Positions 4,985-43,512 of a stretch of DNA of 64,000 nt are shown one piece after another. The DNA is from Christensenellaceae bacterium (GTDB lineage: Bacteria > Bacillota > Clostridia > Christensenellales > Christensenellaceae). The notes under the pieces were generated by a model, which did not search any database, was not told the origin of the DNA, and saw nothing but the letters and a program-made list of their open reading frames with translations. The stretch's first letter is position 1. Each line of letters opens with the position of its first letter. The stretch covers positions 434,001 through 498,000 of the forward strand of contig AP025580.1 of assembly GCA_022846035.1 (NCBI GenBank), given 5' to 3'. Made by a program: the position numbers and the translations under genes.

Positions 4985-6274
4985 ATGAAAAAGCATGTAC
5001 AATTGCTGGTGATTGGCGGGGGACCTGCCGGACTGGCGGCTGCTGTTGAGGCATATGACAAGGGAGTACGGGATATTCTGATCGTAGAGCGGGGCGATCT
5101 GCTGGGCGGAATTTTGAACCAGTGTATTCACACCGGCTTTGGACTCCACATTTTTAAGGAAGAACTTACCGGTCCGGAGTACGCGCTGAAGTTTTGCGAT
5201 ATGGTACGTGAGCGTGAGATACCATACCTTTTGAATTGCATGGTGCTGAGCCTTGACGATCATGCCGTTACGGTGGTGGGCAGGGAATGCGGCATGCTTT
5301 GCATATCGTGCGACGCGCTTATTCTGGCGATGGGCTGCAGGGAACGCCCGCGCGGCGCGATCGGTATTCTGGGCGATCGTCCGGCGGGAGTTTTTACGGC
5401 GGGAACGGCGCAGCGATTGATCAACCTCGAGGGATATATGGTCGGACGGGAAGTCGTGATACTGGGTTCCGGCGACATCGGGCTCATTATGGCGCGGCGC
5501 ATGACTCTCGAGGGAGCCAAGGTAAAAATGGTATGCGAGATCGAGCCTTATTCTAACGGATTGGCGCGCAACATCGAGCAATGCCTGCGCGATTTTGAGA
5601 TTCCACTGCTGTTATCGCATACGATCACGGCCATCCATGGGAAAGAACGGATCACGGGCGTCACCATTGCCAAGGTAGACGAGGCAAAACGCGTAATACC
5701 CGGCACGCAAGAGGATGTTAAGTGCGATACGTTATTGCTTTCCGTCGGCCTGATTCCTGAAAACGAGCTGAGCAGGAATGCGCAAATAGAGCTTGATCCG
5801 AAAACGAACGGACCTGTCGTAAACGAGGGGATGCAGACATCCAAGGAGTGGGTATTCGCCTGTGGAAACGTTGTGCATGTGCATGACCTTGTGGACTTCG
5901 TGACGCAGGAAAGCAGGCGCGCTGGGCAGGCCGCAGCGCGGTATATCCTTGAACATGCATACCGTAGGGAAGACGAAACGCGCGTGGTTGAGGTGAAAAA
6001 CGGGCAGGGGGTACGGTATGTCGTTCCCCAGAAAATATGGGTGGACGCGCCTGTGACGGCGGCAACGCTTTTTTTCCGTTCCGACAGGGTGTATGGCGAT
6101 ACGACGATCAGGGTACGCATGGGAAGCGAGGTTTTGGCCTCGGTACGCCGTAAGCGTATTATGCCCAGCCAAATGGAAACGGTCGTTTTGCCCAGGGAAA
6201 AAATGCAGGATATGAAAAAACTGGGCGGCGCGGTGTTGGAAGTAGAGATCGTGGCGGCAGAGGAAAGAAAATAA
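4985..6274 (+). CDS. NAD(P)/FAD-dependent oxidoreductase, partner of GlpA-like protein
   Basis: A 429-aa pyridine nucleotide-disulphide-type flavoprotein. It carries the FAD motif VIGGGPAGLAAA at the N-terminus, a second nucleotide-binding motif VILGSGDIGLIMA near residue 160, and the terminal FAD-binding ACGNVV segment. FAD proteins of this group occur beside a GlpA-like subunit and a DUF1667 subunit in many Clostridia and are thought to form a multisubunit glycerol-3-phosphate oxidoreductase. It starts 15 bases after the previous stop with an AAAGGGG site and lies in the same operon. Confidence 0.8.
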   Translation: MKKHVQLLVIGGGPAGLAAAVEAYDKGVRDILIVERGDLLGGILNQCIHTGFGLHIFKEELTGPEYALKFCDMVREREIPYLLNCMVLSLDDHAVTVVGRECGMLCISCDALILAMGCRERPRGAIGILGDRPAGVFTAGTAQRLINLEGYMVGREVVILGSGDIGLIMARRMTLEGAKVKMVCEIEPYSNGLARNIEQCLRDFEIPLLLSHTITAIHGKERITGVTIAKVDEAKRVIPGTQEDVKCDTLLLSVGLIPENELSRNAQIELDPKTNGPVVNEGMQTSKEWVFACGNVVHVHDLVDFVTQESRRAGQAAARYILEHAYRREDETRVVEVKNGQGVRYVVPQKIWVDAPVTAATLFFRSDRVYGDTTIRVRMGSEVLASVRRKRIMPSQMETVVLPREKMQDMKKLGGAVLEVEIVAAEERK

Positions 6275-39848: not shown

Positions 39849-39882
39849 AACCCTGTTTGCGGTGGCAAGCAGGGTTATTTTT
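39849..39882. terminator. Terminator between convergent genes
   Basis: AACCCTG and CAGGGTT enclose TTGC-GGTG-GCAA, with T residues after it. It reaches the 3' end of the EndoQ-UvrD gene. A smaller CGCCCG/CGGGCG hairpin precedes it near 39790-39813. Confidence 0.8.
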
Positions 39883-42800
39883 AGAAAAATCCAAGCTGCT
39901 TTACGGCGTTCTTTTTGTGCGCGAAAGCAGGTGCTTCGATTATGCTTTGCTTGGGAAAACCATTTAAAAACGGCGACGGTTCCTGTTTATCCGCCAGCAA
40001 GACGAGCTCATTCTGCGCGCGTGTCAAGCCTACGTAAAACAGCCTGCGTTCTTCCTCTAAATCACTTTTATGCTTTTCATTGCAGAAAGGGATCGTTCTT
40101 TCGTTTACGCCGCACAGAAACACCACGGGGAATTCAAGACCCTTAGAGGCATGCAGTGTCATCAGCGTGACCGCGTCTGACGTATAGGCTTTATGTCCGC
40201 TGCGGCGCACGTCACCCTCCTTGCCCAGAGTGAGGTTTTTAAGGAATTCATCCATGCGTTCGTGCAGCACGGCTGTGTTGATCAGACGCTGGAGCGGCTG
40301 GGGAAGTGCTTCGAAATCCTGCTCGCCTACCCACATGGAAAGCAGGGCTTCGGGCGATTCCCTCCTGAGGAGCGGCGCAAATTTTTCGAGCATATCGGCA
40401 TTTTTGCTTTCGCCTAATTCGCGCAGTAAACAGGTGAGGCTGGCAATGCATTGTTTTCCCGCGCCGTATTTTTCCAAGACTGCTTGCATGGATGCAGGCG
40501 GAACGCTTGCCGATTTTAAGTATGTCGTCAGCGAGACGCAATCCTTTGGATTGCACAAAAAACGGAAAAACGCTAAAGCGCCCATCACCCGACGGTCGGA
40601 AAGACTGTCATCCCTGCCGGCCACCACATAGGGAACGCCTTCCTTTTTCAGGCATTCTTCGATAATTTCCGACTGGCGGTGCGTGCGGTACAAGACTGCA
40701 ATATCGCCAGGGCCGTATTGCGCGTCCGTATGCTTTTTGGATTTGGCATGCGCGGCCAGCATATCTACGCCGCCTACCATGTGGTTGATCTCTTTTGCGA
40801 GGAATAAGGCCTCGGAAAAAGAGGAGTCCACCGTGAGTAGCCGCACAGCAGCGCCGCTTTCCCGCTTTGCCTCTAAAATTTTCTCGTTTCGCCCTATAGC
40901 GTGGAGCGCACAGTTGATGATTTGAGGCGTGGAGCGATAATTATCCTTTAAACGGATTTCATATACAGGGGCAAGGTCTTCGTGCAGCCGCGCAAAACAC
41001 TGGGCGTCGCTCCCGCGAAAGCCGTAAATAGACTGGTCGGGATCGCCTATTACAAAAAGATCCCCCTGTTTGTTCCACGCGCGGATCAGGCGGTATTGCA
41101 CAGGGTTTATATCCTGAAATTCGTCCACCAGCAAGTGGGAAAAGCGGGGCAGGAAAGCCTGCATTTTCGTGTCGCCGTCCTCAAATCTAGCGAGCGTATC
41201 CAATAAAATATCATCGAAATCCACAACGTTCAGTTGCCTGAGCCGGGCGCAATAGGCGTCGTATACCACGAGCGGCACGTCTCCGGCAGCTCCGTTCTTG
41301 ACGCGTGAAATTTCCGAGAGCGCCTCGCGCGGGCGCATGCTGCAGTTACATGCTTTCAGCACGTCGGAAAGCACGCTGAGCGCCGCGTTTTGGTCGATGA
41401 CGGTGATATTTTTATTCCATGCACAAAGCATGTCCAGGCAAATGGAATGGAAAGTGCCGATATGCATGGCCTTAACGATCTTTTTGTCGTGGAAATATTT
41501 GCCTAAACGTTCGCGCATCTCTGTGGCGGCTTTGTTGGTGAAAGTCACGGCGGTGATCTCCGCAGGATCGACGCCGCATTCCTCGATGAGGTAAGCGATA
41601 CGGCAGATAAGCGTACGCGTCTTGCCCGTGCCCGGACCGGCCAAAACGGCAACCGTAGGCTGCTTTGCACAGGCCGCCATCCATTGTTCGGCGTTTAATC
41701 CATAGGGATGGCCGGACATGATCTGCTCCGGCATATCGGAAACGGATGTTTCGCCGGACGTCTTTCGGACAGGAGAAAAAGGAGCCTGCCGTATGTTTTT
41801 TTCTTGTGCGCCGAACAGGCTCAGTTGACCTGCAAACAAGCTGCGCTCGTCCTTATTCATCACCAGGATTTTGCCGTATTCACCGTCGTAGCCGGGATGG
41901 ATTTCCACCTCGCCGCTACGAAGCCGCCGGATTCCTTCGGCAATGAAAGGGTCGGACGCCGCTTTAATATCCTCGATCGGCGCTTCGCGTAAAATATGCA
42001 GCTCCGGACCGAGCTTATGCAGAATATCCTCGTATTGGGCTTTGACTTTTTTGCTTGCCGTCGTCATCCCCATAGACGCCGCGATAACTTCCGGAAGGGG
42101 AACGATACTTTCAAAATGCTTGGCATTTTCCGGTTTAAAACCGGCTTCACGGTCGGCCAGTTCCACAACGCGATGGTAAACGCCCACCGTAATCCTGCGT
42201 CCGCACACAGGGCATTTGCCACCTGCAGCAATCGTTTCCTCGGGCGTGAGGCATACTTTGCAGTTTCTATGACCGTCGTTGTGGTATTTTCCTTCCTCTG
42301 GGAAAAATTCCAGTGTGCCGTAAAATTCATCCGTATCATGGCTTGCAAGCGCACGGGCGACCGACGGATAGGAAAGCCCTGTATTGAAAAGGTTCGCTTC
42401 GCGCGCGAGGTTCGCGGGGGAATGTGCGTCGGAGTTGGATACCATGGTGAAACGGTCGAGCGCAGACAGCCGCCAGTTCATGGGCGGATCGGAAGAAAGC
42501 CCCGTTTCCAGCGCATGAATATGCGGCGTCAGGTCTTCAAAGCATTCCTCTATCGTATCGAAGCCGGAATACGCCCCAAATAATGAAAAATGGGGAGTCC
42601 AGATGTGCGCGGGAATAAAAATAGCGTCAGGGCAGGTATCGAGCGTAATCTCCAACAGGTCATGGCTGTCAAGGCCGAGGATAGGCCGCCCGTCCGAATG
42701 AAGATTGCCGATCAGCTCTAAGCGGTGCGAAAGCGCCTCGCCTGCTTCCAGTGAAGGAAGCAGGATTACGTTATGAACCTTGCGGACCCTGCCGTTCTTT

Positions 42801-43081
42801 TTATAAATCGAACTGATTTCGCCGGAAATCACAAAACGGGGAGCAGGCGCGTCCCCAACTGTTTCCGCAATACGGAAGTCGTCCTTTAAACGGTAAAGGC
42901 CGTCTTCCGCCGGAACAAATTTTTCTTTCAATTCCTCCCGCCAGACAGGGTGGGTAAAGTCGCCCGTGCCGATGAGGTCAAGCCCCTTGCGGCGCGCCCA
43001 TAAATCAAGGTATTCAGGCATACACTCTTTGCTGGTAGCGCGGGAATATTTGGAATGGATATGCAGGTCCGCGATAAACAT
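39881..43081 (-). CDS. Endonuclease Q-UvrD helicase fusion
   Basis: A 1066-aa fusion. Residues 1-440 match endonuclease Q: PHP motif DLHIHSKYSRAT, GTGDFTHPVW, SNSDAHSP, and a four-Cys zinc site C274/C277 and C290/C293. EndoQ nicks 5' of deaminated bases or abasic sites in archaea and a few bacteria. Residues about 465-1066 form a UvrD/PcrA-type superfamily 1 helicase with Walker A GPGTGKT near 480, DEFQD near 652 and HASKGLEFPVVFL near 1000. ATG 43081 is preceded by AGGAG; upstream in-frame codons overlap the neighbouring gene. Cotranscribed with the small Cys protein 4 bases upstream. Confidence 0.85.
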   Translation of the reverse strand: MFIADLHIHSKYSRATSKECMPEYLDLWARRKGLDLIGTGDFTHPVWREELKEKFVPAEDGLYRLKDDFRIAETVGDAPAPRFVISGEISSIYKKNGRVRKVHNVILLPSLEAGEALSHRLELIGNLHSDGRPILGLDSHDLLEITLDTCPDAIFIPAHIWTPHFSLFGAYSGFDTIEECFEDLTPHIHALETGLSSDPPMNWRLSALDRFTMVSNSDAHSPANLAREANLFNTGLSYPSVARALASHDTDEFYGTLEFFPEEGKYHNDGHRNCKVCLTPEETIAAGGKCPVCGRRITVGVYHRVVELADREAGFKPENAKHFESIVPLPEVIAASMGMTTASKKVKAQYEDILHKLGPELHILREAPIEDIKAASDPFIAEGIRRLRSGEVEIHPGYDGEYGKILVMNKDERSLFAGQLSLFGAQEKNIRQAPFSPVRKTSGETSVSDMPEQIMSGHPYGLNAEQWMAACAKQPTVAVLAGPGTGKTRTLICRIAYLIEECGVDPAEITAVTFTNKAATEMRERLGKYFHDKKIVKAMHIGTFHSICLDMLCAWNKNITVIDQNAALSVLSDVLKACNCSMRPREALSEISRVKNGAAGDVPLVVYDAYCARLRQLNVVDFDDILLDTLARFEDGDTKMQAFLPRFSHLLVDEFQDINPVQYRLIRAWNKQGDLFVIGDPDQSIYGFRGSDAQCFARLHEDLAPVYEIRLKDNYRSTPQIINCALHAIGRNEKILEAKRESGAAVRLLTVDSSFSEALFLAKEINHMVGGVDMLAAHAKSKKHTDAQYGPGDIAVLYRTHRQSEIIEECLKKEGVPYVVAGRDDSLSDRRVMGALAFFRFLCNPKDCVSLTTYLKSASVPPASMQAVLEKYGAGKQCIASLTCLLRELGESKNADMLEKFAPLLRRESPEALLSMWVGEQDFEALPQPLQRLINTAVLHERMDEFLKNLTLGKEGDVRRSGHKAYTSDAVTLMTLHASKGLEFPVVFLCGVNERTIPFCNEKHKSDLEEERRLFYVGLTRAQNELVLLADKQEPSPFLNGFPKQSIIEAPAFAHKKNAVKQLGFF

Positions 43082-43085
43082 ACGC

Positions 43086-43286
43086 TTACTCCTGTTCTTC
43101 GCGTGCGACGAAGTGATCGCATTGGCACTTTTCGCCCGTGAGCATATCCGGATCGATGTCGCCGTAAATCTGGCACGAACGAATTTCCGGCATGCCCGGG
43201 GCAAACGTCAGTACGCCGTAATGAACACAGTTAAAGCAAAGCACGTTTTCTTCATTGATATAATTTTGTTTCAGTTGGATTCCCAT
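43086..43286 (-). CDS. Small five-cysteine protein upstream of EndoQ-UvrD
   Basis: A 66-aa protein, start chosen at ATG 43286 because AAAGGG is 8 bases before it. Cysteines are C17-x2-C20, C38 and C54-x-C56 followed by H58, a pattern fit for zinc or an iron-sulphur cluster. I do not recognise the family. Four bases separate it from the EndoQ-UvrD start, so the two are almost certainly co-translated and it may be a cofactor or regulator of that enzyme. Confidence 0.65.
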   Translation of the reverse strand: MGIQLKQNYINEENVLCFNCVHYGVLTFAPGMPEIRSCQIYGDIDPDMLTGEKCQCDHFVAREEQE

Positions 43287-43512
43287 ACAGTTTTCCCTTT
43301 CATCGCCGCATGGCGGCGCGCCGTGGGGCATAGAATCGATATAGTCTCATTATATCGTTTTCCGGAAAGAATAGAAAGCCGCGCGGACGGATTTTTCGCG
43401 GCGGAGCAAAAAAATTGGGTAAGGAATTACCATAGGTTTCCGCTGGGGCGGTGTTACAATGGCGGTAGGAAAGAAAATATGACTTTTCCAAACAAAAAGG
43501 AGGGATCGGAAG

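Follow-up and report, generated by a model that had tools for sequence, protein, structure and literature searches.

The 66-aa ORF on the minus strand directly ahead of the EndoQ-UvrD fusion gene is a real gene, coding for an orphan protein of the gut-bacterial genus Christensenella, and not a chance ORF, because it is present in 6/6 genomes of the genus, shows a pN/pS of 0.18 and is preceded by an SD-like sequence. The family to which the encoded small protein belongs is unrecognised and has a single clear neighbour gene, so that the role of the protein is directly testable in one genus. As a finding it is modest; the stronger and more testable lead is EndoQ-UvrD itself, which carries two sliding-clamp-type motifs. 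The window refers throughout to the whole stretch of 64,000 nucleotides that was analysed.

An orphan gene of the genus Christensenella

The following features of the small gene were located in the window:

43086..43286, minus strand: gene of the small cysteine protein, 66 aa plus stop; orphan family, matched only in Christensenella among the genomes searched
43088..43086, minus strand: stop codon of the small gene
43089..43094, minus strand: CAGGAG, SD-like sequence for EndoQ-UvrD, within the 3' end of the small gene
43349..43354, minus strand: TATAAT, putative -10 box of the small gene (by match to the consensus only)

The plus-strand frame across 43086..43286 encodes an unrelated sequence. 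On the minus strand, the original prediction of a 66-aa ORF with C17, C20, C38, C54, C56 and H58, located 4 bases from EndoQ-UvrD, was borne out in full: the stop codon of the small gene and the ATG of EndoQ-UvrD (43081) are separated by 4 nt. An SD-like sequence is found ahead of the small-gene start, and in the tightly spaced cases the SD-like sequence for EndoQ lies within the 3' end of the small gene. TATAAT was present upstream of the small gene in four of the six Christensenella genomes. LexA-type boxes were also looked for in this upstream region, and no consistent box was seen.

In a search of 101 genomes, comprising the genome itself and its relatives, orthologs were identified in all six Christensenella genomes with E values of 1.1e-33 or better and with 71-85% identity to the window protein. 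Three of the matching loci are named, i.e. those of Christensenella sp. Marseille-P2438, C. intestinihominis and C. hongkongensis. For all 15 pairs taken together, pS was 0.638 and pN 0.117 (ratio 0.183), and the same comparison gave a pN/pS of about 0.15 (0.146) for the adjacent EndoQ domain.

No family match for the small protein was obtained in Pfam, NCBIfam, PHROGs or PADLOC, and no relative was found in plasmids, phages or IMG/VR. A search of PDB sequences returned only two antibody light chains (E 1.3). When a profile of the six orthologs was used, nothing credible was detected beyond these six in 297 genomes of the order, and nothing credible beyond the three genus members included in that draw in 391 genomes of the class; both sets are samples of larger groups. 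Within the 297 order genomes, the six genus genomes with the small gene all carry EndoQ-UvrD.

Weak genome matches with E values of 0.0009-0.05 were read singly, and many proved to be parts of longer frames or to be broken by stop codons. One of the candidates (L036) turned out to be read out of frame across an rpsU-like frame. Among the still weaker hits in the 101-genome search (E up to 0.76) ten were read, and L012, L013, L015, L016, L019 and L022 were left out. A DNA pattern of the four cysteines matched 3/199 genomes besides the own genome, compared with one for the reversed control pattern. After translation, one of these three matches contained a stop codon and the other two were unlike the family beyond the pattern itself.

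Conserved cysteines and a candidate phage relative

Alignment of the six orthologs showed that C17, C20, C38, C56, H22 and H58 are invariant and thus candidate ligands, whereas C54 was found in 1/6 orthologs, that of the window's genome. Therefore, the C-x-C is not a feature of the family, and of the metal-site motif proposed originally all positions except C54 were retained. The cysteine layout of the family is CxxC-x17-C-x17-C. With four cysteines and two histidines invariant in 6/6 orthologs, a metal site in the small protein is plausible. The cysteines may bind one structural zinc, or another metal, and would thereby stabilise a small domain; the small protein is probably such a metal-stabilised mini-domain. 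Short Cys4 zinc proteins in general contain a CxxC and two further cysteines. The small protein is like them in its length and in this arrangement, and differs from them in having no family match in the databases searched.

The same invariant CxxC with two further cysteines could also belong to a redox or metal-sensing switch for EndoQ-UvrD. However, the four cysteines and two histidines suit a structural metal site equally well, and the small protein is absent from 51 other EndoQ loci (see below), so that a switch is considered very unlikely.

Structure prediction was performed with AlphaFold2. For the small protein alone the mean pLDDT was 39 and no fold was obtained, with six close sequences in the alignment. 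Co-folding with the fusion protein, which had been suggested along with the prediction, was run as a read-through chain. The small protein was again disordered, with block means of 24-31 over residues 1-60 and six close sequences, and in the same read-through model (made from the genome G001) much of the enzyme was folded well. This lends no support to an association of the two proteins, and the alignment is too shallow to refute one. Since six close sequences are too few to weigh much, the models do not decide the role of the small protein.

Among the weak matches with E values of 0.0009-0.05, only one, at the locus L038, aligns at all four cysteines. It is an 85-aa ORF (L038 1459-1716) in a prophage-like neighbourhood, and the gene preceding it is taken to encode a MuF-type phage head protein, an assignment made by reading the neighbour without a family search. 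In addition to the four cysteines, the two proteins have GDI in common and the spacing to the last cysteine is also 17. The L038 ORF could therefore point to descent of the small protein from small Cys4 proteins encoded among tailed-phage head genes, one of which would have been recruited or kept for a host role; such a domesticated phage protein would be compatible with an accessory as well as with a passenger role. Indeed, 1/2000 shuffles in which the cysteines were fixed and 0/2000 free shuffles attained the profile score of L038 (15.1), but L038 was selected, at E values of 0.02-0.05, out of scans that covered several hundred genomes. Moreover, hhalign gave a probability of 36%, the phage and IMG/VR searches returned no relative of the small protein, and L038 used as a query found no relative in the 391 class genomes except its own. 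L038 is a possible distant relative of the small protein, and a phage origin is regarded as distinctly improbable.

Pairing of the small gene with EndoQ-UvrD

The small gene adjoins EndoQ-UvrD in 6/6 Christensenella genomes, with gaps of 4, 4, 0, 0, 0 and 245 nt. The pair stays together despite a differing upstream gene: a P-type ATPase family is common to the upstream regions of G002, G004 and G005, and other sequences are found in G000, G001 and G003 (the names of the flanking genes were assigned by reading of the sequence). The order of the flanking families in G001-G003 is the reverse of that in G000 and G004, with which G005 agrees on one side. Many neighbouring gene families are common to the six genomes and gene order is kept over part of the region. 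Because gene order is partly conserved within the genus anyway, the adjacency of the two genes is weaker as evidence.

The gap of 245 nt is that of C. hongkongensis. This intergenic region (L025 5205-5449) contains a strong hairpin (5311-5344) with a 14-bp stem followed by a T-rich sequence, and a stretch of 201 nt folds at a z of -3.1 compared with shuffles, of which 0/200 were as stable. The hairpin is possibly a terminator that uncouples the small gene from EndoQ-UvrD. With 245 nt and a strong hairpin between the two genes in this species, tight coupling is dispensable. In C. hongkongensis the gene ahead of the small gene, read as a P-type ATPase gene, belongs to the family also seen upstream in G002 and G004, and an M-box (magnesium) riboswitch (Rfam RF00380) was detected upstream of this ATPase gene at L025 1211-1367.

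The spacing also bears on whether the small gene might be a mere leader ORF, of which translation would only couple the translation of EndoQ-UvrD while the peptide itself is without function. A spacing of 0 or 4 nt in 5/6 genomes and the SD-like sequence inside the small gene would fit such an arrangement. However, a functionless peptide is difficult to combine with the strong purifying selection on its amino acids (pN/pS 0.18) and with its persistence in the species in which 245 nt separate the two genes, and this is the least probable of the explanations considered here.

To follow the pairing outside the genus, 57 EndoQ loci were scanned for neighbours in six frames with flanks of up to 1.5 kb. 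Of these loci, 28 come from the order, and the other 29 are only the best matches of a phylum draw (see below), in which the weaker matches are mostly stand-alone EndoQs. The six genus loci matched at 2.1e-46 or better and the next match had an E value of 0.13. By six-frame scan and inspection of upstream ORFs on the same strand, a homolog of the small protein was found at 0/51 EndoQ loci outside the genus, three of which have a short upstream flank (109 nt in L060, 392 nt in L065 and 719 nt in L052). Even within the family, a second genus (g3, genomes G010 and G016) was observed to have EndoQ-UvrD without the small protein.

Since EndoQ-UvrD occurs in other lineages without the small protein, the enzyme cannot universally require it. 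The recurrence of the pair that had been anticipated across genomes thus holds within Christensenella and not at the 51 loci outside it. In view of these 51 loci and of the g3 genomes, the originally proposed role as a cofactor, loader or redox switch of EndoQ-UvrD in general is not supported; homologs are absent beside the EndoQ genes examined outside the genus, an outcome that the original prediction had itself named as speaking against it.

Our best single guess, put forward tentatively, is that the small protein is a Christensenella-specific accessory of EndoQ-UvrD; this role is inferred from the retention and the spacing of the pair only. It is closely followed by the explanation that the small gene is an operon passenger, encoding a functional metal-binding protein of which the job is unrelated to EndoQ-UvrD and which shares only promoter and position with it. 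For a passenger, which we consider nearly as likely as an accessory, argue the 51 EndoQ loci without a small gene, the distance and the strong hairpin in C. hongkongensis, and the many neighbouring gene families common to the six genomes. Against it stands the observation that the pair was kept in all six genomes, with 0-4 nt in five of them, across a change of the upstream gene and of the order of the flanks. As an accessory, the small protein would be encoded first in a two-gene unit and be made just before EndoQ-UvrD, and it would perhaps help the enzyme to engage nicked or single-stranded DNA.

The EndoQ-UvrD fusion and its sliding-clamp-type motifs

The fusion gene and its parts are located in the window as follows:

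39881..43081, minus strand: EndoQ-UvrD fusion gene, 1066 aa plus stop
41867..43081, minus strand: EndoQ domain, residues 1-405 (PfuEndoQ 5zb8 match, residues 4-405, E 1.6e-48)
41813..41827, minus strand: internal sliding-clamp-type motif QLSLF, residues 419-423 (48/49 fusions have Q at this position of the alignment)
39959..41701, minus strand: UvrD-type helicase part, residues ~461-1041 (PF00580 and PF13361; PcrA-type match; GajB model match to residue 1041)
39884..39898, minus strand: C-terminal sliding-clamp-type motif QLGFF, residues 1062-1066 (present within the final 12 residues of 25/26 fusions)

Compared with PfuEndoQ (PDB 5zb8 and 7k30-7k33), the window protein is alike in the alignment of residues 4-405 and in the three catalytic ligand positions, as the alignment to 5zb8 retains the positions that correspond to Pfu E76, H84 and H139. 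These Pfu residues are described as zinc ligands essential for cleavage in PMC8307549, where a bacterial EndoQ of Bacillus pumilus is also cited. The window protein differs from PfuEndoQ in being fused to a UvrD helicase, in carrying clamp-type motifs and in its score of 177.6 bits against NCBIfam TIGR00375, which is below the curated cut-off of 326.6. With the PcrA/UvrD superfamily 1 helicases it has PF00580 (E 2.5e-61) and PF13361 (E 1e-44) in common, but with 344.7 bits it lies far below the cut-off of the PcrA equivalog TIGR01073 (911.2).

EndoQ was found in 28/297 order genomes and in 130/299 genomes of the phylum draw. By count from the listing, 33 of these 130 genomes have a frame of at least 980 aa, i.e. 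of fusion size. EndoQ-UvrD fusions recur in many families of the phylum, alongside divergent stand-alone EndoQs of ~400 aa.

The linker that follows the EndoQ domain starts with GQ and continues with hydrophobic residues. The relaxed form of the internal motif, Q..[LMFI][FLW], was present in 44/49 fusions, compared with 0.0019 per position over the same proteins, and a stricter expression matched 36/49. The 49 fusions are the alignment rows minus three rows containing the small protein only; L066, L082, L093, L096, L102 and L103 (short frames or frames at contig edges) and L105 and L106 (split matches) were left out of this alignment. For the strict C-terminal motif, the 25/26 fusions compare with 0.0048 per 12-residue window, the 26 C-termini being those of 20 hand-picked loci and the six Christensenella proteins. 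The expressions for the motifs were formulated after inspection of the first alignment. The relaxed motif occurred in the last 60 residues of 0/20 divergent stand-alone EndoQs, which were hand-picked from the weaker matches of the phylum draw and do not include the closer EndoQs with short frames (L082, L093, L102 and L103). In the read-through model of G001 a low-confidence segment starts at residue 488 of that chain, which is the internal Q, and a second one spans the C-terminal tail.

QL(S/D)LF is given as the consensus for clamp binding in PMC11139829, and EndoQ-UvrD has motifs of this type in segments that are either terminal or modelled with low confidence. The motifs predict that EndoQ-UvrD is an incision-plus-unwinding enzyme tethered to DnaN. 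Binding of EndoQ to PCNA in Thermococcales is described in PMC4858679, where clamp-type motifs of bacterial EndoQ homologs are mentioned as well. The two systems would be alike in the use of a short motif by which EndoQ is attached to a sliding clamp. They differ in that two motifs are present in the window protein, the first where the linker to UvrD begins and the second at the C-terminus of the helicase, and in that its binding to DnaN is a prediction only. No description of a two-motif EndoQ-UvrD fusion was found in a literature search at the level of titles and abstract openings.

EndoQ-UvrD might thus act as a repair machine in one chain, in which EndoQ would nick 5' of a deaminated base, UvrD would unwind from this nick and the two clamp-type motifs would tether the protein to the DnaN sliding clamp. 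If so, a fusion of EndoQ and helicase with two clamp motifs would be a complete incision-and-unwinding module on the replication clamp, and it would become possible to test repair by bacterial EndoQ as a pathway that is coupled to the clamp and parallels EndoQ-PCNA of archaea. A more far-reaching proposal, unlikely as a whole, is that a dedicated metal-binding subunit was added in Christensenella to the doubly clamp-tethered enzyme. Deaminated bases would then be repaired independently of glycosylases by the EndoQ nick, strand opening by UvrD and the DnaN tether, and the small protein, possibly derived from a phage, would tune DNA binding or hand-off.

The genome also encodes a separate PcrA-like helicase, which scores 828.7 bits, also below the cut-off of 911.2, and has no clamp-type motif. 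Three UvrD-family frames of the genome other than EndoQ-UvrD were inspected at their ends and no such motif was present. Three UDG-family matches were also obtained in the genome, so that EndoQ-UvrD exists there in addition to these and to the PcrA-like helicase. The helicase part of the fusion (39959-41701, minus strand) also matches the PADLOC models of GajB (Gabija), with a best E value of 1.1e-80, and this match probably reflects shared UvrD ancestry.
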